NCBI RefSeq assembly: GCF_900104025.1
Contig: NZ_FNIQ01000003.1
Coordinates: forward strand, 372,001-436,000
Length of the DNA: 64,000 nt
Origin: Geodermatophilus sp. DSM 45219
GTDB lineage: Bacteria; Actinomycetota; Actinomycetes; Mycobacteriales; Geodermatophilaceae
Direction of reading: 5' to 3'
The notes under the pieces are model-generated. The model saw only the letters and a list, made by a program, of their open reading frames with translations, was not told the origin of the DNA and ran no database searches. Shown piece after piece: positions 14,373-62,892 of the stretch. The position numbers and the translations under genes are program-made. The number at the start of each line of letters is the position of its first letter. Within the stretch, counting starts at the first letter, position 1.

Positions 14373-15178
14373 GAAAGGACCCGCGTGCCCCCCACCACTC
14401 GCACGCTCGCGGCGGGGCCCTGCACGCGGGCCATGCGGCGCTGGCCGCCTGGCTGGTGCTCCCCCTCGTCCCGCTGGTGCTGTGGGCGGCGGCCGACCGG
14501 TGGACCGCCCCCGCGGTGCTGCCCCAGGCCTGGGGGACGGCGGGGCTGCGGGACGCCGTCGACGCGGGTGCCGGGACCGGCTTCCTGCGCTCGACGGTGC
14601 TGGGCCTGGTCGTCGCGGCACTGGCCACCCCGCTGGGCGCGATGGCCGGGCGGGCGCTGGCCACCCACCGCGTGCCGCTGGGCGGTGCGGTGCTCGCCGT
14701 GCTGCTGTCCCCGCTGGTGCTGCCGCCGTTCGCCGTCGCCCTGGGTCTCGACGTGCTGCTGCTGCGGCTGGGGGTGCCCTCGCCGGTCGGCGTCGTCCTG
14801 CTGCTCACCGTGGCGGCGCTGCCGTACACGACCGTGCTGATGCGCGCGGCCTACGCCGCCCACGACCGCGGGTTCGAGGACGAGGCGCGCACCCTCGGCG
14901 CGACGGCGCGGCAGACGGTGTTCCACGTGCAACTGCCGCTGCTGGCCCCCGCGCTGGCCGGTGCGGCGTTCCTGGCCTTCCTGGTGGGCTGGAGCGACTA
15001 CGTCGTCACCCTGCTCGTCGGCGGCGGGCAGCTGGTGACGCTGCCGCTGCTGGTGGCGTCGGCGGCCGCGGCGACGGGCAACGAGGCGCAGGTGGCCGTG
15101 CTGTCGCTGTCGTCGGTGCTGCCGCCGCTGGTGCTGCTGGTGGCGGTCGGCCTGGTCGGGCGGAGGGCACGGGCATGA
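14363..15178 (+). CDS. ABC transporter permease, second subunit, with N-terminus encoded by a repeat element
   Basis: A 271-residue permease with about six helices and an EAA loop (DEARTLGATARQTVFHVQLPLLAPALAG). The only start that keeps the first helix intact is GTG 14363, 10 bases before the upstream stop. Residues 4-23 (RKDPRAPHHSHARGGALHAG) are read from the dispersed palindromic element at 14374-14432. The mature membrane part begins at ALAAWLVLPLVPLVLW, and this leader is unrelated to other permeases. A downstream GTG or alternative start cannot be ruled out. The gene ends by overlapping the ATPase (ATGA, 15175-15178). Confidence 0.8.
   Translation: MGLRKDPRAPHHSHARGGALHAGHAALAAWLVLPLVPLVLWAAADRWTAPAVLPQAWGTAGLRDAVDAGAGTGFLRSTVLGLVVAALATPLGAMAGRALATHRVPLGGAVLAVLLSPLVLPPFAVALGLDVLLLRLGVPSPVGVVLLLTVAALPYTTVLMRAAYAAHDRGFEDEARTLGATARQTVFHVQLPLLAPALAGAAFLAFLVGWSDYVVTLLVGGGQLVTLPLLVASAAAATGNEAQVAVLSLSSVLPPLVLLVAVGLVGRRARA
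14374..14432 (+). repeat. Dispersed palindromic element, copy R1
   Basis: An element of about 59 bp starting aaaggac two bases past the stop of the first permease and ending gcgggcc. Outer arms cccgcgtgc and gcacgcggg are perfectly complementary. The inside carries the family core ccccccaccactcg...gctcgcggcggggccc. Here it is translated as part of the second permease. Confidence 0.85.
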
Positions 15179-16272
15179 GCGGCACCCTCGAGCTGCGCGG
15201 GCTGACCCGGGTGCACGCGGCCGGCCAGCCACCCGCGCTCGCCGGCTTCACCCTCGACGTCCCCGCCGGCTCCTGCGTCGCGGTGCTCGGGCCGTCGGGC
15301 TCGGGCAAGAGCACCGTGCTGCGGCTGACCGCGGGCCTCGACTCCCCGGACGGCGGCAGCGTGCTCCTGGACGGCCGCGACCTGGCCGGCGTCCCACCCG
15401 AGCGGCGCGGCATGGCGATGGTGTTCCAGCGGCCGCTGCTGTTCCCCCACCTGTCGGTCCGCGACAACGTCGCCTTCGCCGACCGGGTGCGCGGCGTGCC
15501 GCGGCGGCAGGCCCGGGAGCGGGCCGAGCACCACCTGGAGCTGGTCGCCCTGCGCGGCTACGGCGACCGGCCGGCCCGGGCGCTGTCCGGCGGGCAGGAG
15601 CAGCGGGTCGCCCTGGCCCGCGCGCTGGCCGCCGAGCCGCGGGTGCTGCTGCTCGACGAGCCGTTCAGCGCGCTGGACACCACGCTGCGCGAGGAGATGC
15701 ACGACCTGCTGGCCGACCTGCGGGTGCGGCTGGACCCGACGGTCCTGCTGGTCACCCACGACCCCGCCGAGGCCGATGCGCTGGCCGACACGGTCGCGGT
15801 CCTCGACGGCGGCCGGCTGCAGCAGGCCGGGCCGATGCGCGAGCTCTACGCGGCGCCGGCGTCGCTGGCGGTGAGCCGGCTGCTGGGCGGGCGCACCGAG
15901 GTGCCTGGCACGGTGCGGGACGGCGTCCACTCCTCGGTGCTGGGGGCCCTCGCTGTCCCCCGCCCGGTGCCCGACGGGCCGGGAGTGCTCGTCGTCCGCC
16001 CCGAGGCGGTGCGGGTGACCTCGCCCGCGGACCCGGCCGCCGACGCCACCGGCACCGTCGTCCGGGTGCGGCGGCGCGGGCTGCGCGCGCTGGTCGCGGT
16101 GGAGGTGCCCGGGCCCGGCGGGGCGTCGGTCGAGGCCGAGCTCGCGACCGGGGAGGAGCTGCCGGCCGGGCGCACGGTCGGCCTGGTGCTGCCGGTGGCC
16201 GACCGCGCGGTGGTGCCGCCCGTGGACGGCACGCCGTCCGACGCGGCGAGATCGCCGATCTCGCACGGCTGA
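15175..16272 (+). CDS. ABC transporter ATP-binding protein
   Basis: The 365-residue ATPase has Walker A GPSGSGKST (about residue 43), Q-loop MVFQRPLLFPH, signature LSGGQEQR, Walker B VLLLDEPFSALD and H-loop LLVTHDP. A C-terminal TOBE-like regulatory domain of about 120 residues follows, as in CysA/PotA-type importers. It completes the importer operon 12307-16272. Its final codons (SPISHG) run into the palindrome at 16245-16306, so that hairpin probably also terminates the operon. Confidence 0.9.
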   Translation: MSGTLELRGLTRVHAAGQPPALAGFTLDVPAGSCVAVLGPSGSGKSTVLRLTAGLDSPDGGSVLLDGRDLAGVPPERRGMAMVFQRPLLFPHLSVRDNVAFADRVRGVPRRQARERAEHHLELVALRGYGDRPARALSGGQEQRVALARALAAEPRVLLLDEPFSALDTTLREEMHDLLADLRVRLDPTVLLVTHDPAEADALADTVAVLDGGRLQQAGPMRELYAAPASLAVSRLLGGRTEVPGTVRDGVHSSVLGALAVPRPVPDGPGVLVVRPEAVRVTSPADPAADATGTVVRVRRRGLRALVAVEVPGPGGASVEAELATGEELPAGRTVGLVLPVADRAVVPPVDGTPSDAARSPISHG

Positions 16273-16306
16273 GCGGCCCCCAGCGTGCGAGATGGCCGAT
16301 CTCGCC
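16245..16306. terminator. Double palindromic element at the end of the importer operon
   Basis: Two 23-base arms (16245-16267 and 16284-16306) are complementary except for the three central bases. Each arm is itself a palindrome around gcgagatcg/cgatctcgc. It can form one long hairpin or a cruciform between the operon and the convergent radical SAM gene (stop at 16319), and probably acts as a two-way terminator. Confidence 0.65.
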
Positions 16307-16318
16307 GGAGAGGTGCGA

Positions 16319-17734: not shown

Positions 17735-17828
17735 GACAGGCATCCTCACCGCTGGTGTTCGACACGGCAGCTCCGGGCGGTTCACCGGCGCGGCGTGGCC
17801 GGACGGCGGCCGGGGTAGTCGGTCGGGC

Positions 17829-18659: not shown

Positions 18660-18668
18660 TCCTCCTGC

Positions 18669-18691
18669 CGATATCGCGACAAAGGCGGCGA
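18669..18691. repeat. Short atatcgcgacaa element
   Basis: The sequence gccgatatcgcgacaaaggc, lying between two convergent genes, shares the core atatcgcgacaa with 61608-61630 and resembles 52807-52828. Short complementary ends flank the core. It may be a small repeat or a weak terminator. Confidence 0.45.
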
Positions 18692-18699
18692 GGGACGCG

Positions 18700-21417: not shown

Positions 21418-22091
21418 GCCGGCAGGTCGACACCCCGCTCGGCCCGGCCCAGGTCACCGCCACCGAGCCGGACGGCGCCGTCGTCGGCACGCTGGTGCTC
21501 GGGCACGGGGCCGGCGGCGGCCTCGGGTCGGCCGACCTGGCGGCCGTCACCGCCGACGCGGCCGCGGCCGGCTGGCGGGTGCTGGGCGTCGAGCAGCCGT
21601 GGCGGGTCGCCGGCCGGCGGATCGCCCCCGCGCCGCCGCGGCTGGACGAGGGCTGGCGCGCGGTGCTCACCGCGCTCCGGGACGGCGGCCGGCTGACCGG
21701 CCCGCTGGTGCTCGGCGGGCGCAGCGCCGGGGCGCGGGTGGCGTGCCGGACGGCGGCCGAGCACCGTGCGGACGGCGTGCTGTGCCTGGCGTTCCCGCTG
21801 CACCCGCCGGGCCGCCCCGAGCGCAGCCGCGCCGGCGAGCTGACCGCCGTGGAGCTGCCGCTGGGCGTGGTGCAGGGCGAGACCGACGCGTTCGGCCGCC
21901 CCGAGGAGCTCGCGGCGGTGCTGACCGGACGGCCGGGCGCCTCGCTCTACGCCGTCCCCGGCGACCACGGGCTGACCCGCGCCCCCGACGTCGCCGCCCT
22001 GGCCGCCGTGGACTGGCTGGGCGGGGTCGCCGGGACGGTGCCCGGCGACCCCGCGCGCGTCAGCGGCGCCGGCGCCGCAGCACGAGGGTGA
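21414..22091 (+). CDS. Alpha/beta-hydrolase (KANL3/Tex30 dienelactone-hydrolase-like)
   Basis: The 225-residue protein has the oxyanion region LVLGHGAGGGLGSAD, the nucleophile elbow GGRSAGARVA (serine), the acid strand LGVVQGETDAFG and the His in VPGDHGLTRAP. This arrangement fits KANL3/Tex30-type hydrolases. It is the third gene of the DedA-HAD-hydrolase unit. Its last 32 bases overlap the convergent coxG gene. The substrate is unknown. Confidence 0.8.
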   Translation: MSRQVDTPLGPAQVTATEPDGAVVGTLVLGHGAGGGLGSADLAAVTADAAAAGWRVLGVEQPWRVAGRRIAPAPPRLDEGWRAVLTALRDGGRLTGPLVLGGRSAGARVACRTAAEHRADGVLCLAFPLHPPGRPERSRAGELTAVELPLGVVQGETDAFGRPEELAAVLTGRPGASLYAVPGDHGLTRAPDVAALAAVDWLGGVAGTVPGDPARVSGAGAAARG

Positions 22092-22938
22092 CCACCAGCA
22101 CCAGCACCGCGGCACCGGCCAGCGGGCCGGCGTAGCGGGTCAGCGCGGCCCCGCCGGCGACCTCGAGCAGGTCGATCGGCTCGGGCTCGGCCTGCGTGGG
22201 ACCCGTCGGCCGAGCGGCGGGGGCAGCGGGGACCGTGGCGGGCGCGGCCGGGGCGGCGCTGGCGGCGATGGGAGCCGTGTCCGTCGCCCCCGGGGCCACC
22301 GCGGCGTCGGTGGTCGCCGCGGCGGTCTTCTTCGCCGCGGCCGCGGTCTTGCGGGCCTTCTCGGCCACCGCGTTGTCACCGGGCACCTGCTCGACGGAGG
22401 CGGCGACCTCCTCGGCGGCACCGGCCGCCGCGGCGGCGACCTTCTTCGCCGGGGCCTTCTTCGCCGGCGCGGGCGCCTCGGCGAGTCCCGCGTCCCCGGC
22501 ACCGAGCTGGGCGGCCAGCTTGTCGGCGAACTGGCCGAGCAGCTTGTTGCCCACGTCGGTCATCACGCCGCGGCCGAACTGGGCCGGCCGGCCGGTGATG
22601 TTCAGGTCGGTCAGGACGTCGACCCGCGTGCTGTCGCCCTGGGCCTTCAGCTGGGCAGTGATGAGCGCGTTGGCGGTGCCGTTGCCGCGCTGGTCCTTGC
22701 CCCGGCCGTCGATGACCGCCTTGTAGGCCGACTCGTCCTTCTCGACGAACGACGCCTTGCCCTGGTAGGTCAGGTTGATCGGGCCGAGCTTGACCTTCAC
22801 CCGGCCGGTGAAGTCGTCGCCGGTGACCGAGTCCAGGGCGGCACCGGGCATGCAGGGTGCGATCCGCTCGATGTCCAGCAGCACTCGCCAGGCTTCGTCG
22901 ATCGGCACGGGGACGGTGAACGAGTTCTCCAACTGCAC
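22060..22938 (-). CDS. coxG: CoxG-like SRPBCC protein with C-terminal membrane anchor
   Basis: The 292-residue protein starts with an SRPBCC/CoxG domain (MQLENSFTVPVPIDEAWRVLLDIERIAPCMPGA, about 145 residues). A long Ala/Lys/Pro-rich linker follows, then one C-terminal membrane helix (GPLAGAAVLVLVVTLVLRRRRR). CoxG recruits the CO dehydrogenase of Oligotropha to the cytoplasmic membrane, and the tail supports that role. It follows coxM on the same strand, separated by a 36-bp perfect palindrome and a dispersed element, so it may be a separate transcript. Its 3' end overlaps the hydrolase gene. Confidence 0.88.
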   Translation of the reverse strand: MQLENSFTVPVPIDEAWRVLLDIERIAPCMPGAALDSVTGDDFTGRVKVKLGPINLTYQGKASFVEKDESAYKAVIDGRGKDQRGNGTANALITAQLKAQGDSTRVDVLTDLNITGRPAQFGRGVMTDVGNKLLGQFADKLAAQLGAGDAGLAEAPAPAKKAPAKKVAAAAAGAAEEVAASVEQVPGDNAVAEKARKTAAAAKKTAAATTDAAVAPGATDTAPIAASAAPAAPATVPAAPAARPTGPTQAEPEPIDLLEVAGGAALTRYAGPLAGAAVLVLVVTLVLRRRRR

Positions 22939-22964
22939 GGTGCTACCTCCGAGGGTGCGGAACG

Positions 22965-23000
22965 CGGCCGGCCCGCTCCCGCGCGGGAGCGGGCCGGCCG
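22965..23000 (-). terminator. 36-bp perfect palindrome between coxM and coxG
   Basis: cggccggcccgctcccgc at 22965-22982 is followed immediately by its exact complement to 23000, giving an 18-bp stem with no loop bases. It lies between the coxM stop and the coxG start and probably terminates coxSLM transcripts. Confidence 0.6.
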
Positions 23001-23010
23001 AGTCGGGCGC

Positions 23011-23066
23011 GGCCCCGTCCAGGGCACCGCCCCGAGCCTGCGAGGGGTGGGGAGGACGGGGTCCTT
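23011..23066 (-). repeat. Dispersed palindromic element, copy R2
   Basis: Read on the minus strand it begins aaggacc four bases past the coxM stop and ends ggacggggcc. Arms ccccgtcc (23013-23020) and ggacgggg (23054-23061) pair perfectly. The core ctcgcaggctcggggcgg is the family core. Confidence 0.82.
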
Positions 23067-23070
23067 CAAG

Positions 23071-23928
23071 CTACAGCCCGGCGGCGGCGGTCACCGCCCG
23101 GCGAGTCAGCACCTGCACCAGGTGCTCGCGGTAGTCGGCCTGGGCGTTGAGGTCGCTGCTCGGGGCGGTCCCCTCGGCGGCCGACCGCGCCGCCTCGGCG
23201 ATCGTCTCCGGGCTGGCCTGGGCCCCGGCCAGCGCGGCCTCGACGGCACTGGCCCGCAGCGGCGTCGCGCCCATGTTGGTCAGCCCGATCCGCGCCTCGG
23301 CGATGTGCCCGTCCTCCCGGCGGACGACCGCGGCCACCGCCACGATCGACCACGCCTGCGCCACGCGGTTGAACTTCTCGTAGCGCATGCCCCACTCACC
23401 GGCCAGCTTGGGGACGCGGATCTCGACGAGCAGCTCCCCCTCCTCCAGCGCGGTGGTCAGGTAGTCGACGAAGAACTCCGACGCCGGCACCGTCCGGCGC
23501 CCCCCGAGGCCGGCGATCACGAAGTCGGCGTCCAGGGCGAGGGCCACCGCCGGCAGGTCGCCGGCCGGGTCGGCGTGGGCCAGGGCCCCGCCGAAGGTGC
23601 CCCGCGCCCGCACCTGCCGGTCGGCCACCGTCTCGGTCGCCTCGGCGATGAGGGGTGCGTGCTGCAGCACCAGCGGGTCGGTCATGACGTCGTGGTGGGT
23701 CGTCATGGCCCCGATGACGATGGCGTCGCCGTCGTCCCGGACGCCGCGCAGCTCGGCGACCCGGGTCAGGTCGACCACCGTCTCCGGCGCGGCCAGCCGC
23801 AGCCGCATGACGGGGATCAGCGACTGGCCCCCGGCCATGATCTTGACGTCGTCCCCGCCCTCGGCGATGGCCTGCAGGGCCTCGTCGACGGTGCTGGGAC
23901 GGGCGTACGCGAACGCAGCGGGAATCAC
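23071..23928 (-). CDS. coxM: CO-dehydrogenase-type FAD-binding (medium) subunit
   Basis: The 285-residue protein matches molybdenum-hydroxylase FAD subunits: [18 protein letters not shown] at the N-terminus, the FAD pyrophosphate loop [15 protein letters not shown], and the second FAD motif [16 protein letters not shown] (TIGGxxxxxDPxxD-like). It passes electrons from the iron-sulfur subunit to a quinone or other acceptor. GTG 23928 overlaps the coxL stop by 4 bases and follows ggaggtgacc. The order S-L-M is that of form II enzymes. Confidence 0.93.
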
Positions 23929-26420
23929 CGGTCACCTCCGAGGGAGGACGCAGGGGTGGAGACGCCGGCGGTGCTCTCGGTCTGGGCCCCGCCGTAGGCG
24001 TTGGTGCCGGCGGTGGCGCGGTCGCCGCCGTCCCCGCCCTGGTGCAGTGCCCGCCAGACCCGTTCGGGGGTCAGCGGCATCCGGATGTCGCTGACCCCGA
24101 GGTGCCGGACGGCGTCCAGCGCGGCGTTGACGACCGCCGGGGTGCTGGCGATGCAGCCGGCCTCCCCGACGCCCTTCGCGCCGATCGGGTTGCCCGGCGC
24201 CGCGTGCACCGTGTTGCCGGTGTCGAAGTGCGGCAGGTCCGCCGCCGAGGGCACCAGGTAGTCGACGAAGCTGCCCGTGGTCAGGTTGCCGTCGGCGTCG
24301 TACACGGCCTCCTCGAACAGCGCCTGGGCGATGCCCTGGGCCAGCCCGCCGTGGACCTGCCCTTCGACGATCAGCGGGTTGACGATCGTCCCGATGTCGT
24401 CCACGCAGGCGTACTTGCGGATCTTCACCATGCCGGTCTCGGTGTCGACCTCCATGGCGCAGATGTGCGTGCCGTGCGGGAACGAGAAGTTCACCGGGTC
24501 GAACGTGGCGTCCGCGTCGATCGAGGGCTCGACGTCCTCGGGGTAGTTGTGCGCGGCGAAGACCGCCAGGGCGATCTCCTGGATGCCGAGCTCGGCCCCC
24601 GGCGTCCCGCGGACGGAGAACTTCCCGCCGCTGAACTCCAGGTCGTCCTCGCTGGCCTCCAGCAGGTGCGCGGCGATCTTCCGGGCCTTGGCGACGACCT
24701 TCTCGGCCGCCTTGACCACCGCGGTGCCGCCGACCACCAGGGACCGCGAGCCGTAGGTGTCCAGGCCGCGGGTGGAGATGGCGGTGTCGCCGTGCAGCAC
24801 CTCGACGTCCTCGAAGGGGACGCCGAGCTCGTCGGCCACCAGCTGGCTCCACGCCGTCTCGTGGCCCTGCCCGTGGGGCGTGGACCCGGTGACGACCTCG
24901 ACCTTGCCGGTGGGCAGCATCCGGATGGAGGCGTGCTCCCAGCCGCCGGCGCCGAAGGACAGCGAGCCCAGCACCCGGGACGGCGCCAGGCCGCACATCT
25001 CGGTGAACGTGGAGAAGCCGATGCCCAGCTGCACCGGGTCGTTCGACTCCCGGCGCCGCTGCTGCTCGGCGCGCAGCTCGTCGTAGCCGATGAGCTCCAG
25101 GGCCTGCTGGGTGGCGGTCTCGTAGTCGCCGCTGTCGTACTCCAGCCCGGCCACCGTGGTGAAGGGGAACTCCGCGGCGTTGATCCAGTTCTTCCGGCGC
25201 AGCTCGAGGGGGTCCATGCCCAGCTCGACGGCGAGCTCGTCCATGATCCGCTCGATGGCGAAGGTCGCCTCCGGCCGCCCGGCCCCGCGGTAGGCGTCGG
25301 TGGGCACCTTGTTGGTGAAGACGCCGTCGCACTCGAACCGGTAGGCGGGGAACTTGTAGATGGCCGGGAACATGAAGGCACCGAGCGCCGGCACGCCGGG
25401 CGTGATCAGCCGCAGGTAGGCGCCCATGTCGGCGAGCAGCCGAACGCGCAGACCCTTGACGTGGCCCTCGCGGTCGGCCGCGACGTCGATGTACTGGATC
25501 TGGTCGCGCCCGTGGTGGGCGGTCATCAGCGACTCGCTGCGGGTCTCGGTCCACTTGACCGGCTTGCCGAGCCGGCGGGCCAGCAGGAGGGCGATGACCT
25601 CCTCCGGGTTGACCTGCAGCTTCCCGCCGAAGCCGCCGCCGACGTCGGGGGCGATGATCCGCAGCTTGTGCTCCGGCACCCCGGTGACCGAGGCGAGCAT
25701 GACCCGGAGGATGTGCGGCACCTGGGTCGCCGACCACATCGTGTAGTTGTCGCCCTGGGGCTGGACGACGACCGAGCGGGGCTCCATGAACGCCGGGATC
25801 AGCCGCTGGTTGACGAACCGGCGGCTGACGACCACCTCGGCGTCGGCGAACGCCTGCTCGGTGTCGGTCCCCGTGCCGGCCTCCCCGGCGTCGAAGACGA
25901 AGTGGTAGCTGGTGTTGGACTCGAGGTGGTCGTGGGTGAGCTGCGCGCCCTCGGCCACCGCCTCCTCCATGTCGAGGACGGGCGGCAGCACGTCGTAGTC
26001 GACGTCCACCAACTCGATGGCGTCGGCCGCGGCGGCCTTGCTCCGCGCGACGATCACCGCGACCGCCTCGCCGACGTGGTTGACCTCGTCCACGGCGATC
26101 GACGGGTGGCCCGGGTTGACCATGTCGGGGGTGACCGGCCAGGCGCAGGGGATGGAGCCCTGCTCGTCGGCGAGGTCCCGCCCGGTGTAGACGGCGACGA
26201 CCCCGGGGGCCTGCTGGGCGGCGCTCACGTCGATCGCGGTGATCTTGGCGTGGGACACGGGGCTGCGGACGACGGCCAGGTGCAGCATGCCGGGAAGGAC
26301 CATGTTGTCGGTCCACGTCGTCCGGCCGGTGATCAGCCGGGCGTCCTCCTTGCGGCGGCGGGCCTTGCCGACCTCGCGCTCCGGCGCGTCCGTTCCGGGC
26401 CGGTCCTCGACCGCGGTCAC
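23925..26420 (-). CDS. coxL: Form II CO-dehydrogenase-type molybdopterin large subunit
   Basis: The 831-residue xanthine-oxidase-family protein has the a/b hammerhead at the N-terminus and the molybdopterin blocks [22 protein letters not shown] and [11 protein letters not shown] with the catalytic Glu near the end. The active-site loop reads AYRGAGR (about residues 375-381), the form II signature. Form I CO dehydrogenases have AYxCSFR, with the Cys that binds copper, and that Cys is missing here. CO oxidation is therefore uncertain and other aldehydes or N-heterocycles are possible substrates. GTG 26420 overlaps the coxS stop (GTGA). Confidence 0.93.
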
Positions 26421-26959
26421 TGCTGGGCTCCCGCGACGTGCGGAGCGGCGGCGGTGTCGACCTCGGCCGGGGAGGCGTGCCCGTTGCCGCTGCCGCGCAT
26501 CTCGCCGGCGGCCTGCTGCACCGCTCGGACGATGTTCTGGTAGCCGGTGCAGCGGCAGAGGTTGCCCTCGATGCCCTCGCGGACCTCGGTCTCGCTGGGG
26601 TCGGGGTTCTCCTTGAGCAGGTCGACCGAGGCCATGATCATCCCTGGCGTGCAGAACCCGCACTGCAGGCCGTGCATCTCGTGGAACGCCTTCTGCATCG
26701 GGTGCAGGCCGCCGCCCTCGGGTGCCAGCCCCTCGATGGTGGTCACCTCGCCACCGTCGGCCTGGACGGCCAGCACGGTGCAGGACTTCACGGCCGCGCC
26801 GTCCAGGTGGACGGTGCAGGCGCCGCAGTTGCTGGTGTCGCACCCGACGACGGTGCCGACCTTCCCGAGCTGTTCCCTCAGGTAGTGCACCAGCAGCGTC
26901 CGGGGCTCGACGTCGTCGGTGTACGTCACCCCGTCCACGCGCACGTTGATCTGGGTCAC
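26417..26959 (-). CDS. coxS: CO-dehydrogenase-type [2Fe-2S] small subunit
   Basis: The 180-residue protein has the plant-type ferredoxin cluster ([16 protein letters not shown] plus Cys in KSCTV). The C-terminal four-helix cluster domain has CGFCTPGM and CRCTGY. A 25-residue Ala-rich tail extends beyond the usual end. It starts at GTG 26959 after ggaggaccc and is the first gene of the coxSLM unit, so the promoter should lie in 26960-27060, where it faces an iron-box-bearing divergent region. Confidence 0.93.
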
Positions 26960-27041
26960 GGGTCCTCCGCTCCTCTGCAGGGGTCGTGTGGCTGCGGACA
27001 CACAGCTCCGCTTGCCGCGAGTGTGTCGAGCACCACGTGAC

Positions 27042-27060
27042 TTAGGCCACGCTAACCTCC
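27042..27060. promoter_or_regulatory. Possible second, degenerate IdeR/DtxR iron box
   Basis: ttaggccacgctaacctcc matches 13 of 18 arm positions of the 19-bp consensus twaggttagsctaacctwa. It lies about 80 bases upstream of coxS and could influence either direction. Confidence 0.4.
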
Positions 27061-27243
27061 GGACCACGTCGTCTCTGCGAGTCGCAGCAGCGGAAGAATC
27101 AGCGGTCCTACCTCCGCAGGAAGGAGCGATCAATGCGTTTCGACCCCGCAGGTGCGGCAGGAGGGCAACGTTGCAGGCGGGTTGCACGGCAGCCGGCCCG
27201 ATGGGCCGGGACACCCGGGTGGAACCGCTCCAGGAACGTCGGC

Positions 27244-27262
27244 TTAGGTGAGCCTCACCTAT
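27244..27262. promoter_or_regulatory. IdeR/DtxR iron box upstream of the siderophore-binding lipoprotein
   Basis: ttaggtgagcctcacctat is a near-perfect palindrome (8 of 9 arm positions) matching the IdeR/DtxR consensus. It ends 14 bases before the ATG at 27277, so Fe(II)-loaded regulator would block the promoter or early transcription under iron sufficiency. Confidence 0.8.
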
Positions 27263-27276
27263 TCGGAAGGATCCAC

Positions 27277-28275
27277 ATGTCTGTCCGCCCGTTCCTGCGC
27301 GGCGCCGCCCTGCTCGCCGCCACCGTCCTGGTCACCAGCTGCGGCTCCGGTGACACCGAGACCCCCGAGGACGCCGCCGCGTCGGGCAGCGGCTCGGCGT
27401 CCGGTGCCTTCCCGGTGACCGTCGAGACCGCCTTCGGTCCGGTGGAGGTCCCCCAGGAGCCCCAGCGGGTGGTCGCGCTCGGCTGGTCGGACGCCGAGAC
27501 GGCGCTGGCGCTGGGCGTGCAGCCGGTGGGCGCCAGCGACTGGCTGGCCTTCGGCGGCGAGGGCGTCGGCCCGTGGGCCGAGGGGCTCTACGACGAGGCG
27601 CCGGAGATCATCGAGACGCTCGAGCCCAGCCTGGAGGCGGTCGCCGCGCTGGACCCCGACCTCATCCTCGACACCCGCTCCCCGGCCACCCAGGAGCGGT
27701 ACGACGCGCTCAGCCAGATCGCCCCGACCATCGGTCAGCCGGAGGGCGTCGGCGCGTACCTGACCACCTGGCAGCAGCAGCTGGACCTGGTCGGCCAGGC
27801 GCTGGGCCGGGAGGAGCAGGCCGACGAGCTGCAGGCCGAGGTGGAGCAGCAGTTCGCCGAGGCCGCCGCGGCCCACCCGGAGTTCGAGGGCACCGAGGTC
27901 GCCGTCGGCGCCTACACGTCGGAGGGCTTCGGCGCCTACGTCCGCGGTGACACCCGCGTCGACTTCATGGAGGCGCTGGGCTTCACCAACAAGCCCGCGA
28001 TCCAGGACCTCGCCGGGGAGAGCTTCTTCGTCTCGATCAGCGAGGAGCAGGTGCCGCTGCTCGACGCGCCGCTGACCGTCGTCTTCCCGATCTTCGTCGA
28101 CGCCGCGCAGATCACCGGCAACCCGCTGTGGCAGTCGCTGCCCTCGGTGCAGCAGGGCAACGCCCTGGTGCTGGAGGACCCGACGCTGTCCAACGCCTTC
28201 TCCAGCGGCTCGGCCCTGGGCACGCAGTACGCCCTGGAGAACGCCGTCCCGCTGTTCGCGGAAACCCTCGGTTAG
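27277..28275 (+). CDS. Iron-siderophore ABC transporter substrate-binding lipoprotein
   Basis: The 332-residue lipoprotein (lipobox LVTSCGS, Cys22) has a FepB/FhuD-type periplasmic-binding fold with the typical start of the mature fold ([26 protein letters not shown]), the long mid helix and [20 protein letters not shown] near the end. It should bind a ferric siderophore at the outer face of the membrane. No permease or ATPase gene is adjacent. ATG 27277 follows ggaagga. The IdeR box directly upstream predicts iron repression. The gene ends convergently, overlapping the MFS gene by 4 bases. Confidence 0.9.
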
Positions 28276-29564
28276 GCCTCCCTGCAGGGTCCCGCCGCGA
28301 GCTCGCGAGTGGTGGGGGGCAGGGAGGTCCTTCCTCGGGCCGGTGCGGGCGCCGTCCGCACCGGCCCGGTCCGCTCCTCCCTGCGGCGCAGCACCGCCGA
28401 GGCGGTGAGCGCCCCCAGCCCGACCGCGGCCAGCCCGGCGCCGACGACGGCCGGCGCGGTCCAGCCCAGGCCCGCGGCGATGACCAGCCCGCCGAGCCAG
28501 GCGCCCAGCGCGTTGGCCGCGTTGAGCGCCGAGTGGTTCAGCGCCGCACCGAGCATCTGCGCCTCGCCGGCGACCTCCATCAGCCGCAGCTGCAGCGTCA
28601 CGACCAGCACCGAGGCGGCCCCCGACAGCAGGAACAGGGTGGCCAGCAGCCCGGGCGCCCAGCCGGCGACGACCGCGATCAGCCCCAGCAGCACCCCCGT
28701 GGCGAGCATGGCCCCGACCAGGGAGCGGAACAGCGCCCGGTCGGCGAGCCGGCCGCCGACCGCCGTCCCCAGGACGCCGCCCACGCCGTAGACCAGCAGC
28801 ACCCACGGCACCGCGCCGCGCGCCAGCCCCGCCACCTCGGTGGACAGCGGCGAGACGTAGCTGTAGACGGCGAACATGCCGCCGAAACCCACGGTGGCGA
28901 CCAGCAGGGTCAGCAGCACCTGGGGACGGCGCAGCGCGGTGAGCTCGGTCGCGACGGTGACGTCATCCCGCCCCGGCGTGGACGGCACGAACGCCAGCAC
29001 CGCGAGCACCGTGGCCGCGGCGAGCACGACGACCGCCCAGTACGCCGCCCGCCAGCCCAGCTCCTGGCCCAGCCAGGTCGCCGCCGGCACGCCCGCCAGG
29101 TTGGCCACGGCGAGTCCCAGCATCACCGAGCTGACCGCCCTGCCCCGCAGCTCGGGCCGCACCAGCGAGGCGGCGACCAGCGAGGCCACCCCGAAGTAGG
29201 CGCCGTGCGGGAGGCCGCTGACGAAGCGGGCGACGAGCAGCGAGGGGTGGCCGGCGGCCAGCGCGCTGGCCAGGTTGCCGACCAGGAACGCGGCCATGAG
29301 GGCGACGAGCAGCCCGCGCCGCGGCAATCGGGCGCCCAGCGCGGCGATGACCGGCGCACCCATCACCACGCCCAGCGCGTAGGCGGAGATGACGTGGCCG
29401 GCGGTGGGGATGTCGACGCCCACGCCCTCGGCGATCTCGGGCAGCAGGCCGATCGTCACGAACTCCGTCGTCCCGAGGGCGAAGCCGCCCAGGGCGAGGG
29501 CGACGATCGCGGCGACGACCCGCCGGGCGCTGAGCAGGGGGACGCCGGACGGTGCGGAGGTCAC
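28272..29564 (-). CDS. MFS exporter (DHA1 family), C-terminus encoded by a repeat element
   Basis: A 430-residue 12-helix transporter with the DHA1 motif GFALGTTEFVTIGLLPEIAEG, motif A-like GARLPRRGLLVA and VSGLPHGAYFGVA, as in AraJ/sugar-efflux and CmlR-like exporters. The substrate is unknown; the position beside an iron-regulated binding protein invites the guess of siderophore export, but nothing in the sequence shows it. The last 20 residues or so ([18 protein letters not shown]) are read from the palindromic element 28275-28332 and do not belong to the family. The stop overlaps the convergent gene. Confidence 0.85.
   Translation of the reverse strand: MTSAPSGVPLLSARRVVAAIVALALGGFALGTTEFVTIGLLPEIAEGVGVDIPTAGHVISAYALGVVMGAPVIAALGARLPRRGLLVALMAAFLVGNLASALAAGHPSLLVARFVSGLPHGAYFGVASLVAASLVRPELRGRAVSSVMLGLAVANLAGVPAATWLGQELGWRAAYWAVVVLAAATVLAVLAFVPSTPGRDDVTVATELTALRRPQVLLTLLVATVGFGGMFAVYSYVSPLSTEVAGLARGAVPWVLLVYGVGGVLGTAVGGRLADRALFRSLVGAMLATGVLLGLIAVVAGWAPGLLATLFLLSGAASVLVVTLQLRLMEVAGEAQMLGAALNHSALNAANALGAWLGGLVIAAGLGWTAPAVVGAGLAAVGLGALTASAVLRRREERTGPVRTAPAPARGRTSLPPTTRELAAGPCREA
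28275..28332 (-). repeat. Dispersed palindromic element, copy R3
   Basis: Arms cctccctgc (28277-28285) and gcagggagg (28319-28327) pair over 9 bp around the family core, whose centre is the palindrome cgcgagctcgcg. It sits exactly where two convergent genes meet and doubles as the 3' end of the MFS coding sequence, so it may act as a terminator for both. Confidence 0.85.
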
Positions 29565-29623
29565 GGAACAGCGGCAAGGCCTCTGCCCTCAGCCGCATTC
29601 CCGGCCCGGTGACGTGCTGGAAT

Positions 29624-29683
29624 GGCCCTCCTGCAGGGGCCCGCCCCGAGCGACAGCGAGGGGTGGGGGGCAGGCGGGTCCTT
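29624..29683 (-). repeat. Dispersed palindromic element, copy R4
   Basis: On the minus strand it starts aaggacc directly at the TAA stop of the GAF regulator and ends gggcc, followed by the flank attccagcacgtcacc (29610-29623). That flank also follows copy R5. Arms ccctcctgc and gcaggcggg pair with one mismatch. Confidence 0.82.
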
Positions 29684-31010
29684 ACTGGAGCGGCCCGCGG
29701 GGGGTGCGGCGCAGGCGGTGCAGGTGCGCGGCGACGGCCGGCCGGCTCGGGGCGCCGGGCGGCAGGGTCTCCAAGCAGGCCTGCCACACCACGGCGTCGT
29801 CCTGGGCCTCGGGCAGCCGCGTGTAGCGCAGCAGCAGCTCCGGTCGGCGGCCGGCCAGCACCGCCTGCCGCAGGGCGGCGCCGAGGCGGTCGCGGGCGGC
29901 GACGACCCCCGGTGCCGACGAGCGGGGCAGCACGGCCCCGGGGTAGCGCTCCAGCGCCGGGCCGACGGCGCCGCGGGCGAGCAGCCGGCGCACCTGGTCC
30001 AGGTCGGTCTCCAGCGGGCCGGTGAGCCGGTAGGGCCGGGAGCCCAGCAGCTGCGCGCCGACCAGCCGGCGCAGCCGGGACAGCTCGGCGCGCACGGTGA
30101 CCGCGGCCGCGTCGCCGGCGTGGCACTCGGCGGCCAGCTGCTCGGCCGTGCGCCCGCCCCCGCCGGCCGCCGCCTCGGCGAGCAGCAGCAGCAGCTCGGA
30201 GTGGCGCAGCGAGAGCTCCGCGGGGCCCGACGGGAGCACCAGCCGGGCGCGCTCGCGGCCGAGGACCTCCAGCTGCGGCGCCGGCCGGGCCGCCGGGCGC
30301 GGAGCCGGACGGACCGGGCGGGCGGCCTCCTCGCGGTGCAGCCAGCGCAGCTCGGACTCCACCGCGGCCACGGTGGCGCGGACCAGGGTGAGCACCTGCG
30401 GGCTGGCCACGTGGTCGCCGCCGGTCACGTCGATGGCACCGAGCAGCACGCCGGTGACCGGGTGGTGCACCGGCGCGGCCGAGCAGCTCCAGGGCTGCAC
30501 CGGGCGCCGGTAGTGCTCGCTGCCGTAGATCTGGACGGCGTGGTCGAGGGCCAGCGCGGTACCCGGGGCGTTGGTGCCGGCGACATCCTCGGACCAGCAC
30601 GCACCCTCGACGAAGTGCATGACCTCGGCCCGGGCACGCAGCTGCCGGTCGCCCTCGACCCACAGCATCCGGCCGTCGGCGTCGCTGACCGCGACGATCA
30701 TCCGGTCGGCCTCGGCGTCCTCCACCAGCAGCCGGCGGATCACCGGCAGCACCGGCGCGAGCGGGTGCGCGGCGCGGTAGGCCAGAAGCTCGTCGTCCAG
30801 CAGGTCGACCGGCGGTGCGACGCCGTCGGGGTCGACGCCGCTGCCGAGGCTGCGCCGCCAGGAGTCCCAGACGACGGCGCGCACGGAGCCCGGCGCCGCG
30901 GGGCGGTCGGAGCGGGTGACGAGGGCTTCGTGGGCAGCGCGCAACCGCCCGGTGAGGGCCGGGTCGGGCAGGCCGTCGGGCAGCGCGACCCACGGGTTCA
31001 GCGTCGTCAC
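29682..31010 (-). CDS. GAF-domain transcriptional regulator with winged-helix/BTAD-like C-terminus
   Basis: The 442-residue protein has an N-terminal segment (VVWDSWRRSLGSGVDPDGVAPPV) and a GAF domain (MLWVEGDRQLRARAEVMHFVEGACWSEDVAGTNAPGTAL) typical of AcoR-like regulators of alcohol and aldehyde metabolism. The sigma-54 AAA domain is missing. Instead the C-terminus looks like a winged helix (LSLRHSELLLLLAEAA...LSRLRRLVG) followed by a BTAD-like helical region. It starts 10 bases after the mftF stop and so probably belongs to the mycofactocin operon, sensing a small molecule linked to alcohol oxidation. Confidence 0.75.
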   Translation of the reverse strand: MTTLNPWVALPDGLPDPALTGRLRAAHEALVTRSDRPAAPGSVRAVVWDSWRRSLGSGVDPDGVAPPVDLLDDELLAYRAAHPLAPVLPVIRRLLVEDAEADRMIVAVSDADGRMLWVEGDRQLRARAEVMHFVEGACWSEDVAGTNAPGTALALDHAVQIYGSEHYRRPVQPWSCSAAPVHHPVTGVLLGAIDVTGGDHVASPQVLTLVRATVAAVESELRWLHREEAARPVRPAPRPAARPAPQLEVLGRERARLVLPSGPAELSLRHSELLLLLAEAAAGGGGRTAEQLAAECHAGDAAAVTVRAELSRLRRLVGAQLLGSRPYRLTGPLETDLDQVRRLLARGAVGPALERYPGAVLPRSSAPGVVAARDRLGAALRQAVLAGRRPELLLRYTRLPEAQDDAVVWQACLETLPPGAPSRPAVAAHLHRLRRTPRGPLQ

Positions 31011-55541: not shown

Positions 55542-55578
55542 GCACCGGCCCTACCCGCATCCCGCGCGTCCACGCGGC

Positions 55579-57154: not shown

Positions 57155-58282
57155 GTGCCCGTCAACACCCGCGGCGCGATCCTGCGCTCCGCCCCCGGCA
57201 AGTACGAGGTCGTGGACCTGGTCGCCGACGACCCGCGCCAGGGCGAACTCCAGGTCAAGCTGGCGGCGTCCGGCATGTGCCACTCGGACGACCACATCGC
57301 CACCGGCGACATGCGGGTGGGCCACTACCCGTTCCTGGGCGGCCACGAGGGCGCCGGCGTCGTGACGGCGGTCGGTCCTGGCACCCCCGGGTTCAAGGAG
57401 GGCGACCACGTCGTCTTCTCGTTCCTCCCCGGGTGCGGCCGGTGCCGCTACTGCGCCAACGGTCAGCAGTACATCTGCGACTCGGGCGCCAACCTGCTGA
57501 TCGGCTCACGCTGGGACGACGCGGAGAGCTTCCGCTTCACCACCACGGACGGCACGCCGGTCGGCCAGATGTGCGGCCTGGGCACCTTCGCAGAAGTGAC
57601 CACGGTCGACGTCCGGTCGACGGTGAAAATCCCCGACGACATCCCGCTGGACGTGGCCTGCCTCGTCGGCTGCGGCGTCGGCACCGGCTGGGGGACCGCG
57701 GTCCAGGCCGGGGAGGTCAAGGCCGGCGACACGGTGATCGTCATGGGCATCGGCGGCATCGGCATCAACGCGGTCCAGGGTGCCGCGCACGCCGGGGCGA
57801 GCCACGTGATCGCCGTCGACCCGGTCGCGTTCAAGCGCGAGAAGGCCATGGAGCTGGGCGCGACGCAGGCCTTCGGCAGCATCGAGGAGGCCGCCGAGTT
57901 CGGCCGCAGCGTCACCAACGGCCAGGGGGCGGACAAGGCACTGGTCACCGTCGGCGTGCTGAAGGGCGAGCACGTCGCCCAGGCGTTCGAGGCGATCGGC
58001 AAGGGAGGTCGTGTCGTCATCACCGGCCTCGGCGACCTCACCGACGTGGGCATCCCGATCAACCCCAGCATGATGGCGCTGTTCACCAAGGAGATCCGCG
58101 GCGCCCTGTTCGGCGACCAGAACCCCAGCGCCGACATGCTGAAGATGCTGCGGCTCTACCAGGAGGGCAAGATCAAGCTCGACGAGCTGATCACCAAGCG
58201 GTACAAGCTCGACGACATCCAGCAGGGCTACGAGGACATGCACGCCGGCAAGAACATCCGCGGCGTCATCGTCTACGACTGA
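57155..58282 (+). CDS. NDMA-dependent zinc alcohol dehydrogenase (nicotinoprotein, MDR family)
   Basis: The 375-residue class III-like MDR protein has catalytic zinc ligands in SGMCHSDDH and GHEGAGVV, and the structural-zinc Cys set in CGRCRYCANGQQYIC. The nucleotide motif is GIGGIGINAVQGAAHAGA. The sequence closely follows the mycofactocin-associated NDMA-dependent ADH family. It oxidises primary alcohols with a bound NAD(H) that must be re-oxidised by an external carrier. GTG 57155 after gaggaggt. It is followed by a nested repeat (58285-58391), then MoxR and VWA genes on the same strand. Confidence 0.92.
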   Translation: MPVNTRGAILRSAPGKYEVVDLVADDPRQGELQVKLAASGMCHSDDHIATGDMRVGHYPFLGGHEGAGVVTAVGPGTPGFKEGDHVVFSFLPGCGRCRYCANGQQYICDSGANLLIGSRWDDAESFRFTTTDGTPVGQMCGLGTFAEVTTVDVRSTVKIPDDIPLDVACLVGCGVGTGWGTAVQAGEVKAGDTVIVMGIGGIGINAVQGAAHAGASHVIAVDPVAFKREKAMELGATQAFGSIEEAAEFGRSVTNGQGADKALVTVGVLKGEHVAQAFEAIGKGGRVVITGLGDLTDVGIPINPSMMALFTKEIRGALFGDQNPSADMLKMLRLYQEGKIKLDELITKRYKLDDIQQGYEDMHAGKNIRGVIVYD

Positions 58283-58284
58283 GG

Positions 58285-58391
58285 AAGGACCCCCCTGCCC
58301 CCCACCGCTCGTTGGAGGACCCCGTCCTCCCCACCGTTCGCAGGCTCACGGCGGGACCCGGGACGGGGCCGGCGGGGCCCTGCAGGGGGCC
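58285..58391 (+). repeat. Nested pair of dispersed palindromic elements, copies R5-outer and R5-inner
   Basis: The outer element (arms ccccctgc 58291-58298 and gcaggggg 58382-58389) starts two bases after the ADH stop. At its apical loop, after ccaccgctcg, a complete second element (58312-58370; arms ccccgtcc and ggacgggg) replaces the usual loop, after which the outer core ggcggggccc resumes. The flank gttccagcacgtcacc follows. Confidence 0.88.
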
Positions 58392-58465
58392 GTTCCAGCA
58401 CGTCACCGGGACCGGGGCGTCCCTCAACGAGGGGCGCCCCGGTCGCGTGTCCAGCGAGGAGCACC

Positions 58466-60372: not shown

Positions 60373-60388
60373 GCGGGCGGCGACCGGC

Positions 60389-61054
60389 TCAGCCGCCGAT
60401 GTCGGCGAGGTCCAGCGCGTCCTCCGGCGCGGTGATGTCCTGCTCCTCGCCGAACTCGCTGAGCCTCAGCGTGCCCTCGTCCTCCGTGCCGACGACCTCC
60501 AGCGGGTACGGCTCCCCCTCGCCCGCAACGACCAGCGAGCCGCCGCTGTCCTCGGAGACGACGACGACCGGCTCGCCGTCGCGCTCCTCGGTGGCGACCT
60601 CCTCCCGGTACCCGCCCTCGCCGGGCGAGCGCAGCTCGTCGGCCAGGCCCTGCAGCGTCAGCTCCTGGAAGCCCGCGGCGGCCTCGCCGGGGACGAGCAC
60701 CCAGCGGCCGTCGAGCTCGGCGGCGAACTCCTGCGGCACACCGGACCCGCCCCAGAACTCCGCCGGCGCCTGCATGTAGACCTGCCCGTCGACCGCGGTC
60801 AGCTGCACGTCCAGGCCGCCGAGCGACAGCGTGCCGGTGAGGTCGTCGCCCTGCACCTGCAGGTCGACCTCGCCGCTCTCGCCGTCCATCGCGTACTCGC
60901 CGCCGACCGCGGCCGAGCCGGCCTCCTCCAGCGCGGTCGCCGCACGGTCGGCCACCTCGGGACCGCTGAGCTCGGCCATGCCGTTGCCGTCCGAGCCGCA
61001 CGCGGTCAGCAGCAGGGCGGTGGTGCCCAGCAGGGCCAGGGTCCGGTTGCGCAC
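60389..61054 (-). CDS. Secreted lipoprotein of LppX/LprG-like type
   Basis: The 221-residue lipoprotein has lipobox LLTACGSDG (Cys about 20). A beta-rich acidic domain follows, with GEVDLQVQGDDLTGTLSLGG, VDGQVYMQAPAEFWGG and GRWVLVPGEAAAGFQ, resembling the half-barrel of LppX/LprAFG lipid carriers. The fold assignment is tentative. GTG 61054 after gaggggga. It would be anchored on the outer face of the membrane; its relation to the enzymes around it is unknown. Confidence 0.75.
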   Translation of the reverse strand: MRNRTLALLGTTALLLTACGSDGNGMAELSGPEVADRAATALEEAGSAAVGGEYAMDGESGEVDLQVQGDDLTGTLSLGGLDVQLTAVDGQVYMQAPAEFWGGSGVPQEFAAELDGRWVLVPGEAAAGFQELTLQGLADELRSPGEGGYREEVATEERDGEPVVVVSEDSGGSLVVAGEGEPYPLEVVGTEDEGTLRLSEFGEEQDITAPEDALDLADIGG

Positions 61055-61219
61055 GGGTCTCCCCCTCGTCCCCGGACCCGGCGGTCCGGCCGGGCGATCA
61101 TCCGGTACCGGCACGACCCCCGGGCCCATCGGGTGCCGCGTGTCGGGGGTGCGGCCGGCGGACGGCGTCCCCCGCGCGGGCCGGGTCCAGCGGGACGGCG
61201 CCGGCCACGCGCACGGGTC

Positions 61220-61275
61220 GGCCCCTCTGCAGGGTCCCGCCGCGAGCGCGAGCGGTGGGGAGCAGAGGGGTCCTT
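61220..61275 (-). repeat. Dispersed palindromic element, copy R6, at the break of the MOSC gene
   Basis: Arms cccctctgc (61222-61230) and gcagagggg (61262-61270) pair perfectly over 9 bp around the family core with cgccgcgagcgcgagcgg. It begins where the MOSC homology stops. Confidence 0.85.
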
Positions 61276-61588
61276 CCACCACGCAGCGCCTCCACCTCCG
61301 CACCCCGCAGGACGACGGTGCGCCGGGCGGGCAGCGGGTCGAACGGCGTCGAGCCGGTCGCGGCGGCCGCGGCCTCCAGCGCCTCGACCGCGAGCACGGT
61401 CAGCTGCGCGTCGCGGTGCGCCGGGCGGCCGGCGTAGCGGTCCCCCACCGCGCCGTACCCGGCCCGCACCTCGATCACCTCGCGCCGGTCGCCGTCCTGG
61501 GCCGGGACCGGGCCGCCGGGCCGCCGGGCCGGCCGTCGCAGCGGTGCACCGCCGAGGCCAGTAGCGCCACGACCCCGACGTCGTACAC
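61272..61588 (-). pseudogene. MOSC-domain protein remnant, frameshifted and 3'-truncated
   Basis: From GTG 61588 the frame gives VVALLASAVHRCDGRPGGP, the usual MOSC-family beginning, but stops after about 37 codons. The continuation (VIEVRAGYGAVGDRYAGRPAHRD, then FDPLPARRTVVLRGAEVEALRG) is in the next frame. The shift falls in a ggcccggcggcccggcgg tract (around 61508-61527). Homology ends abruptly at 61280, at the border of repeat R6, and the conserved C-terminal half is missing. A sequencing error could explain the frameshift but not the truncation. Confidence 0.75.
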
Positions 61589-61607
61589 GGACGGCAGCCC
61601 GGCACCG

Positions 61608-61630
61608 CCAATATCGCGACAATGGCGGGT
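61608..61630. repeat. Short atatcgcgacaa element
   Basis: ccgcca and tggcgg flank atatcgcgacaa in the gap between the MOSC remnant and xdhC. It shares its core with 18669-18691. Confidence 0.5.
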
Positions 61631-61638
61631 CGAGGAGC

Positions 61639-62760
61639 TCAGCGGTCCGCCGTCCGGTGGATGGGTCCCTCCGTGCCGGTCAGCCGCTCCCCCGAGCCGC
61701 CCCACCGCCCGGCGATGACCTCGGCGGCGATCGAGATCGCCGTCTCCTCGGGCGTGCGGGCGCCCAGGTCCAGCCCGATCGGTGAGGACAGCCGGGCCAG
61801 CTCCTCCTTGGACAGCCCGGCCTCCTCCAGCCGCACCAGCCGCTCCTCGTGCGTGCGTCGCGAGCCCATCGCGCCGACGTAGGCGACCGGCAGCCGCAGC
61901 GCGACCTCCAGCAGCGGGACGTCGAACTTGGGGTCGTGGGTGAGCACGCACAGCACGGTCCGCTCGTCGATGCGCCCGGCGTCGACCTCGCCCTGCAGGT
62001 AGCGGTGCGGCCACTCGACGACGACCTCGTGCGCGTCGGGGAAGCGCTTGGGCGTGGCGAAGACCGGGCGGGCGTCGCAGACGGTCACCCGGTAGCCGAG
62101 GAAGGCGCCGACCCGGGCGACGGCGGCGGCGAAGTCGATGGCGCCGAAGACGACCATCCGAGCGGCCGGGGCGAAGGCGTTGACGAACAGCGACAGATCG
62201 TCGCCGCGCCGCTCGCCGTCGTGCCCGACGTGCATCATCCCGGTGCGGCCGGCGGCCAGCATGCCGCGGGCGTCGTCGGCCACGGCGTCGTCCAGCCGCT
62301 GCAGGCCCAGGGTGCCCGAGCTGCGGTCGGGCCACACGACCAGCCGCCGTCCTACCCGGTCCTCCGGGCCGGCGACGCAGGTGACGACGGCGACCGGCTC
62401 GTGCGCGGCCACCGACCCGGCGACCTCGCCCAGCTCGGGGAAGGACTCGCGCGACACCGACTCGACGAACACGTCGAGGATCCCGCCGCAGGTCAGCCCG
62501 ACGGCGAAGGCGTCGTCGTCGCTGACGCCGTAGCGCTCGAGGGTGGGGACGCCGCTCTCGACGACGTCCCGGGCCTCCTCGTACACCGCGCCCTCGACGC
62601 AGCCGCCGGACACGCTGCCGACCGCGGTGCCGTCCGGCCCGACCAGCATCGACGCGCCGGCCGGGCGCGGGGCCGACCGCCAGGTGGCCACGACCGTGCC
62701 CATCCCGACGGTCTCCCCCGCCTGCCACCAGCCGACGAGATCGTCCAGTACGTCACGCAC
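61639..62760 (-). CDS. XdhC/CoxF-family molybdenum-hydroxylase maturation protein
   Basis: The 373-residue protein has the XdhC N-terminal CoxI-like domain (GTVVATWRSAPRPAGASMLVGPDGTAVGSVSGGCVEGAV, with the conserved Cys) and a second conserved block, GLTCGGILDVFVE. The C-terminal Rossmann domain has VVFGAIDFAAAVARVGAFLGY and AYVGAMGSRRTHEERL. XdhC proteins deliver sulfurated molybdopterin to xanthine-oxidase-family enzymes. The coxSLM product at 22-27 kb is the only visible client in the window. GTG 62760 follows ggagccc. Confidence 0.9.
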   Translation of the reverse strand: MRDVLDDLVGWWQAGETVGMGTVVATWRSAPRPAGASMLVGPDGTAVGSVSGGCVEGAVYEEARDVVESGVPTLERYGVSDDDAFAVGLTCGGILDVFVESVSRESFPELGEVAGSVAAHEPVAVVTCVAGPEDRVGRRLVVWPDRSSGTLGLQRLDDAVADDARGMLAAGRTGMMHVGHDGERRGDDLSLFVNAFAPAARMVVFGAIDFAAAVARVGAFLGYRVTVCDARPVFATPKRFPDAHEVVVEWPHRYLQGEVDAGRIDERTVLCVLTHDPKFDVPLLEVALRLPVAYVGAMGSRRTHEERLVRLEEAGLSKEELARLSSPIGLDLGARTPEETAISIAAEVIAGRWGGSGERLTGTEGPIHRTADR

Positions 62761-62789
62761 AGAAGGGCTCCTTTCGTCGGCAGGACGGC

Positions 62790-62892
62790 GGCCCCCCTGC
62801 AGGGCCCCCGGCCCTCTCCTGGCGCGCCCTGAGCGTGCGAAGGGCTCGGGGAGAGGGTCCTTGTACGAGCGGTGGGGGGCAGGGGGGTCCTT
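62790..62892 (-). repeat. Nested pair of dispersed palindromic elements, copies R7-outer and R7-inner
   Basis: The outer element (arms cccccctgc 62792-62800 and gcagggggg 62879-62887) begins at the stop codon of the VWA gene when read on the minus strand. The inner element (62810-62865; arms ccctctcc and ggagaggg) sits in its apical loop after ccaccgctcg, the same site as in R5. The first 27 bases of outer R7 and outer R5 are identical. Confidence 0.88.

Follow-up and report, generated by a model that had tools for sequence, protein, structure and literature searches.

A stop-proximal, self-nesting hairpin repeat family in Geodermatophilus sp. DSM 45219 and its relatives

What is the short palindromic element that recurs behind stop codons in a 64,000-nucleotide (nt) stretch of the Geodermatophilus sp. 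DSM 45219 genome (NCBI RefSeq assembly GCF_900104025.1, contig NZ_FNIQ01000003.1, positions 372,001 to 436,000; the whole of this stretch is termed the window below), and why do its two arms change together? We find that it belongs to a high-copy hairpin repeat whose arms covary, which sits at a preferred distance behind stop codons, nests within itself in both orientations, and turns over faster than the genes that flank it. On balance, we lean toward the view that it represents a non-autonomous mobile hairpin family resembling repetitive extragenic palindromes (REPs), present at at least 151 places and most often positioned two nucleotides after a stop codon, where it is predicted to slow down termination by the ribosome in the way reported for stop-proximal REPs of E. 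coli. The many copies, their nesting and inversion, their rapid turnover and their constant landing place together make a mobile hairpin of the REP kind the best reading of these data.

Architecture, copy number and position of the element

We assign a copy to the strand that reads AAGGACC. In the AAGGACC...GGCC orientation, a typical copy spans roughly 56 bases and consists of AAGGACC, an arm, CCCCACC, two bases, TCGC-NN-GCTC, two further bases, GGCGGG, a short CCC-containing stretch, the matching arm, and GGCC. The complementary strand folds into an outer stem whose foot carries a bulged T, an internal loop on one side only ([AC]GGG), an inner stem that carries a common G.T pair, and the tip GAGC-NN-GCGA; the arms fall into two sub-types, GTCC and TGC. 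The original prediction, made from the sequence alone, had described nine copies in the window with an AAGGACC start, a CCCCACC core and a GGCC end, and direct reading of all seven stretches in which they lie bears this out:

14374-14432, + strand: solitary copy; AAGGACC starts 2 nt after the TGA of gene 13533-14372 (BPD_transp_1); 72.6 bits
23011-23066, - strand: solitary copy of the GTCC-arm type; 4 nt after the TAG of gene 23071-23928 (CO dehydrogenase FAD-binding subunit); 79.5 bits
28275-28332, - strand: solitary copy; inside the 3' end of open reading frame (ORF) 28272-29564 (MFS_1 transporter), with the TAA just behind the copy; 77 bits
29624-29683, - strand: solitary copy with one arm mismatch; its first bases form the TAA stop of gene 29682-31010 (GAF domain); the copy is followed by ATTCCAGCACGTCACC; 63.8 bits
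58285-58391, + strand: outer copy, with its 5' half at 58285-58311 and its 3' half at 58371-58391 (approximate); 2 nt after the TGA of gene 57155-58282 (zinc-type alcohol dehydrogenase)
58315-58370, + strand: inner copy in the loop of 58285-58391, assigned by the nesting rule; 77.2 bits
61220-61275, - strand: solitary copy inside the weakly scoring ORF 61098-61478, with no recognised stop codon ahead; 72.9 bits
62790-62892, - strand: outer copy; its initial A doubles as the final base of the TGA that ends gene 62892-63971 (VWA_CoxE)
62810-62862, - strand: inner copy in the loop of 62790-62892, assigned by the nesting rule; 49.6 bits

A covariance model built from 38 genome copies matches seven of these nine at E 7.6e-10 or better; the other two are the outer copies, whose loops have been replaced, and were recognised by eye and by the nesting rule. 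Four weaker matches in the window (E 0.18 to 6.9) were taken as chance. That the opposite arm changes to match holds throughout the window, where an arm mismatch was noted at 29624-29683 alone. The further statement that nearly all copies begin within 0-4 bases of a stop codon is true of five of the seven solitary or outer copies (14374, 23011, 29624, 58285 and 62790) but not of 28275 and 61220, both of which lie inside ORFs. The MFS transporter ORF 28272-29564 reads through the whole of its copy, which would add a repeat-encoded tail to the C terminus of the protein. Carbon monoxide dehydrogenase-type genes occur at two places in the window, 22060-23928 (CoxG and FAD-binding subunit) and 61639-63971 (XdhC/CoxI and VWA_CoxE), and copies lie between genes at both.

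Across the genome, the model finds at least 151 matches at E up to 0.01, the weakest match listed having an E of 1.8e-9; 150 candidates were scored in this search, so 151 is a lower bound. A strict pattern gives 97 genome matches and its reversed control none. The original prediction had named two ways in which it could fail, an absence of genome-wide enrichment and arm complementarity no better than chance; these counts, together with the pairing statistics below, leave its claim standing. Among relatives, for which copy numbers rest on the strict pattern, the element occurs in 33 of 37 Geodermatophilaceae genomes, including all 26 of the genus (the host counted), and in none of 24 other genomes of the order. 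For the protein of a neighboring gene, the top-ranking named matches come from Geodermatophilus, in keeping with the source of the window. Loci centered on rbfA tell the same story: the model matches 96 times in the 57 Geodermatophilaceae records (1.03 Mb, E up to 0.001) and nowhere in the 23 other actinobacterial records (0.34 Mb, E up to 0.1). When 296 genomes of the class were searched with the model under stricter filters and with 19 candidates scored per genome, three matched: the host and two genomes of another family, G112 and G387 (best 41.3 bits; G and L numbers are our labels for genomes and loci). Among the Geodermatophilaceae genomes, G028, G029, G032 and G034 lack any match to the strict pattern.

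To describe position, genes were called with a codon-score script in loci chosen around copies. The model gives 154 hits in loci of the host genome (G000) and the window (61 + 93), of which 145 were usable after dropping 7 at locus edges and 2 duplicates. All but five of these lie outside called ORFs, and 120 of the 140 outside have a co-directional gene upstream. The copy starts between -2 and +5 nt from the stop codon in 82 of the 140 (68 at TGA, 9 at TAG and 5 at TAA), with +2 the commonest spacing and 53 copies exactly 2 nt after a TGA. Uniform placement in the same spacers would put 21.8 of 119 copies so near a stop, and 81 are seen there. A second group lies 23-36 nt from the stop, and many of its members are inner copies of nested pairs whose outer copy starts near the stop.

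The stop codon's own surroundings are also distinctive. Of the 54 copies with spacing 2 (53 TGA, 1 TAA), 50 have a C immediately ahead of the stop. Among TGA stops, 83 of 98 that have a copy read CTGA, versus 139 of 231 that lack one (Fisher p about 1e-5). The dinucleotide that separates stop from element is usually AG, GA, GG, CG or AA, against a background of GC, CC or CG. Away from stops, GT[AG]G directly precedes AAGGACC in 13 of 63 copies (0, 0, 0 and 2 at shifted offsets), and in other species it directly precedes the foot in 11 of 76 (0, 0, 1 and 0), a count that excludes 20 of the 96 hits as lacking a GGACC foot or enough flank. TGA as a preferred stop type was considered and rejected, as it shows no enrichment (98/118 versus 231/272).

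The arms of the element truly covary. In three alignments, cells with a double change number 74, 193 and 244 against shuffled means of 26.0, 54.3 and 69.8, and they drop to 2 to 18 when the partner is slid by 1-3 columns; the founding alignment was chosen by eye for intact arms and is thus biased to pairing, and the later alignments, found by and fitted to the model, share this bias. At a single site, the spacer between the DUF503 gene and rbfA, double changes that keep the pair fill 85 cells, compared with 19 for one-sided wobble changes and 16 for mismatches, the pattern expected if whole copies are replaced. Covariation alone is therefore no proof of selection on RNA, and the original interpretation is partly supported.

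Pairing also differs between the strands. Relative to the upstream gene, it is the antisense strand that folds better, in 50 of 50 alignment rows and in 144 of the 145 copies, because A.C mismatches of the sense strand become G.T pairs on the other. When the commonest G.T position is set aside, G.T still exceeds A.C by 18 to 6 in alignment A4 and by 53 to 21 in A3, with a further inner-stem position supplying 8 and 18 of these. The mean fold energy is -30.7 kcal/mol for the sense strand and -36.9 for the antisense strand, and the hairpin on the mRNA strand is stable too. This antisense bias may mark the strand that is recognised as DNA, or an antisense RNA; alternatively, the A.C mismatch may be a wanted irregularity on the sense strand.

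Nesting and turnover

Copies of the element sit within one another. By a rule-based count, same-orientation nesting in an outer copy affects 21 of the 145 genome copies versus 3.7 when flanks are re-paired, with two of these cases (L047 and one of two L231 rows) looking false by eye; inverted nesting affects 4 of 145 versus 0.2 in re-paired controls. In other species the same-orientation count is 3 of 96 (0.7 with re-paired flanks; L114 looks false), with no inverted case. A nested copy substitutes for a section of the outer loop instead of merely interrupting it. Owing to the GC content, a plain count of stems around copies does not separate from control below 10 bp. In part of the copies, the GGCC end is immediately adjoined by a second repeat, G(T/A)TCCAGNACGTCACC, which sometimes runs into the 3' half of another copy; it is seen downstream of 29624-29683 and 58285-58391 and at L011, L027, L028, L058, L063, L196, L198 and others.

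Comparison of the same site between close relatives indicates how quickly copies change. In a scripted comparison over all sites, where flanks are 94-97% identical (n=32), 12 comparisons share a same-orientation copy, 9 have an inverted copy only and 11 have none detected; the comparisons are not independent of one another, and a copy too degenerate to pass the model cut-off is scored as absent. When a copy is shared, identity averages between 0.747 and 0.755 in each class of flank identity from 80 to 97%, and stands at 0.755 in the 94-97% class. Between L082 and L084, whose rbfA genes are 97.5% identical, the outer arms are common and the sole difference within the stems is in the inner stem. 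L093 and L100 show an apparent deletion of the hairpin, with GGACC left beside a (G/C)-TCCAG tail. In the infB-DUF503 spacer of nine loci (L075, L080, L082, L084, L092, L094, L098, L105 and L118), an inverted copy abuts the apparent DUF503 start codon, so that the well-folding strand would lie in the leader of that mRNA.

These comparisons bear directly on an explanation that we think unlikely, though it fares best among the rivals: that the element is a host-maintained RNA structure in the 3' region of mRNAs, serving ribosome release, mRNA stability or 3' end formation, which is kept by selection at certain genes and whose movement is incidental. The covarying arms and the exact distance from the stop codon fit such a role, as does the recurrence of the element at one gene across species, with a sense-orientation copy in the DUF503-rbfA spacer of 31 of 57 loci. 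Copies at that site are, however, about as different from each other as they are from copies elsewhere (mean identity 0.741 versus 0.720), and their identity correlates weakly with that of rbfA (r = 0.136). A host-maintained structure also sits poorly with the inverted or missing copy in 20 of the 32 comparisons with 94-97% identical flanks, and with wobble pairs that favor the antisense strand.

Mobility and its alternatives

Could the same pattern arise with no dedicated mobiliser? Old palindromes might be rewritten in place by cutting at the hairpin tip, by template switching that copies arm onto arm, and by conversion between copies, and such DNA rewriting would yield matched arms, swapped loops and nesting without transposition. 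Several observations suit this idea: C-G, G-C and T-A alternate at single pairs with few intermediates, nested copies take the place of part of the outer loop, the stems of L082 and L084 differ in the inner stem only, and no transposase model was found. By itself, however, rewriting leaves new sites, inverted copies, the precise stop distance and the preceding C unexplained, and arm-copying should erase the one-sided internal loop, the foot bulge and the inner G.T position, all of which are kept in most aligned copies. We consider this explanation improbable.

We rate as similarly improbable the proposal that the element is an antisense-facing or two-way terminator, in which the GGCC-to-GGTCCTT strand stops polymerases entering from the 3' end of a gene or ends the transcript of an opposing convergent gene. 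In its favor, the antisense fold is lower in energy in all but one of the 145 copies; four or more T's follow that fold within 8 nt in 50 of 145, and 51 of the 140 copies outside ORFs lie between convergent genes. Against this, three of those T's are fixed by the AA of the foot and the TGA, five T's are reached in 3 of 145 copies, and 69 of the 140 copies lie between co-directional genes. A sense-strand intrinsic terminator of the upstream gene, one form of the terminator that the original prediction offered, is not supported, with just 1 of 145 hairpins followed by four or more T's within 8 nt, and with copies found also between co-directional genes such as those for IF-2, DUF503 and RbfA (Pfam).

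A known RNA family was likewise rejected, since Rfam release 15 gives no match in the window at gathering scores and, for the copies in 22950-29800, none even with E relaxed to 1, and carriage by plasmids or phages is unsupported, an 81-base query holding a single copy finding no match at E 0.01 in either collection. A sub-threshold Rfam match to the Streptomyces small RNA Scr2736 at 26136-26171 (27.1 bits, gathering score 43) is probably chance.

Among the possibilities raised at the outset, a mobile element is thus the best supported, by nesting in both orientations and by inverted or missing copies between close relatives. We propose that the observed turnover reflects transposition, that the folded single strand is the form recognised, and that an enzyme would copy the element through this folded strand. 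Its position at stop codons may stem from target choice, as suggested by the C before the stop at spacing 2, combined with loss of insertions that break genes. By parallel with E. coli, a hairpin so placed would be predicted to slow the terminating ribosome.

A number of observations weigh against mobility of this kind. Most copies are distinct (138 of 145, with 7 repeating another exactly), and thus no recent burst is visible. The nearest relative of 18 of the 31 DUF503-rbfA copies lies at the same site, indicating that some copies are inherited. Aligned filled and empty sites lack a consistent target-site duplication, with a possible GAGT in L121 versus L086. GT[AG]G precedes just 3 of the 82 stop-adjacent copies. 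Relative to composition-matched shuffles, the fold of the sense strand stands out only moderately (median z -1.72, with 65 of 145 below -2; antisense median z -2.64), and better pairing and G.T wobbles on the antisense strand are unexpected if an mRNA hairpin is the selected form. Finally, the Y1/REP transposase family PF01797 (E 0.001) and the model NF047646 (E 0.1) each match in 0 of 76 family genomes, while positive controls including E. coli matched, and PF01797 is likewise found in 0 of 5 genomes with related repeats or loops (two g38, three g36). A mobiliser of the REP-associated tyrosine transposase (RAYT) or IS200 type is thus not found in the host, in the 76 family genomes or in these five, a search that did not extend to other mobilisers such as IS110-type recombinases. 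A REPtron, in which copies flank their own gene, was also sought at 14 hand-picked loci with two close copies, and the ten flanked genes all match ordinary Pfam families.

If the mobile-hairpin reading is correct, Geodermatophilaceae carry many REP-like elements without a known mobiliser, which would point to another enzyme class for small hairpin elements. We tentatively extend this picture to a REP-like world without RAYTs, in which an enzyme that reads the folded single strand would move a family-wide population of self-pairing repeats to stop codons and into resident loops, possibly building Russian-doll hairpins at gene ends. Since so many copies keep one fixed distance to the stop, and since a given gene may carry a copy in one species and none in a neighboring one, such natural pairs could test whether stop-proximal palindromes tune translation.

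Comparison with known systems

We recognised no published description of this hairpin family in the open-access literature searched; the accessible part of PMC9686282 treats palindromes only as clustered regularly interspaced short palindromic repeats (CRISPR). Like intrinsic terminators, the element is a GC-rich hairpin behind genes, but it differs from them in having no U-tract on the sense strand and in lying between co-directional genes, 2 nt from the stop.

Similar hairpins also occur within the phylum. The two genomes of another family that match the model (G112 and G387, loci L148-L154) carry a related repeat with the core CCCAACCCTCGCAAGCTCGGGCCGGGGCCCTCG and other arms, and in two of seven loci read (L148 and L153) a called gene ends where the match begins. 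The pattern CCCTTCGN(2-4)GCTCAGGG, with a similar hairpin tip, has 23 matches in G236 (L160), a genome of the same order but another family, and one to few in others, with at least one in 30 of 296 genomes of the phylum. These CCCTTCGACARGCTCAGGG-type hairpins, for which we know of no published name, resemble our element in their tip, TTCG..GCTCA with matched flanks, but usually have four tip bases (ACAR) rather than two, and the four loci that were read show neither the AAGGACC foot nor the outer arms.

Class 3 Y1-associated repeats, described in the available text of PMC6006769 as having a 5' CnGA foot, share with our family a high copy number and, in the CTGA that precedes most stop-adjacent copies, a similar flanking motif. 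In our case, however, the CTGA contains the gene's own stop codon, and no Y1 gene was found in the family.

The likeness is greatest to REPs with their transposase TnpA_REP (RAYT), as described in the accessible portions of PMC6006769 and PMC12306157: both are short imperfect hairpins with an irregular stem, present in many extragenic copies and in families of sub-types. We do not file the element as a REP because the defining transposase, sought with two models, was not found in the 76 family genomes. The arms of our element also vary freely yet stay paired, its copies nest in loops, and in most stop-adjacent copies GA and two further bases, mostly purines, occupy the position of GT[AG]G, the REP guide sequence as given in the text available from PMC6006769. 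That motif does stand directly before the foot in a minority of copies, and both kinds of element often lie close behind stop codons. According to the part of PMC12306157 accessible to us, an earlier study cited there found that 260 of the 496 REPs of E. coli lie within 15 nt of a stop codon, and REPs in this position are reported to cause ribosome stalling and lower translation.

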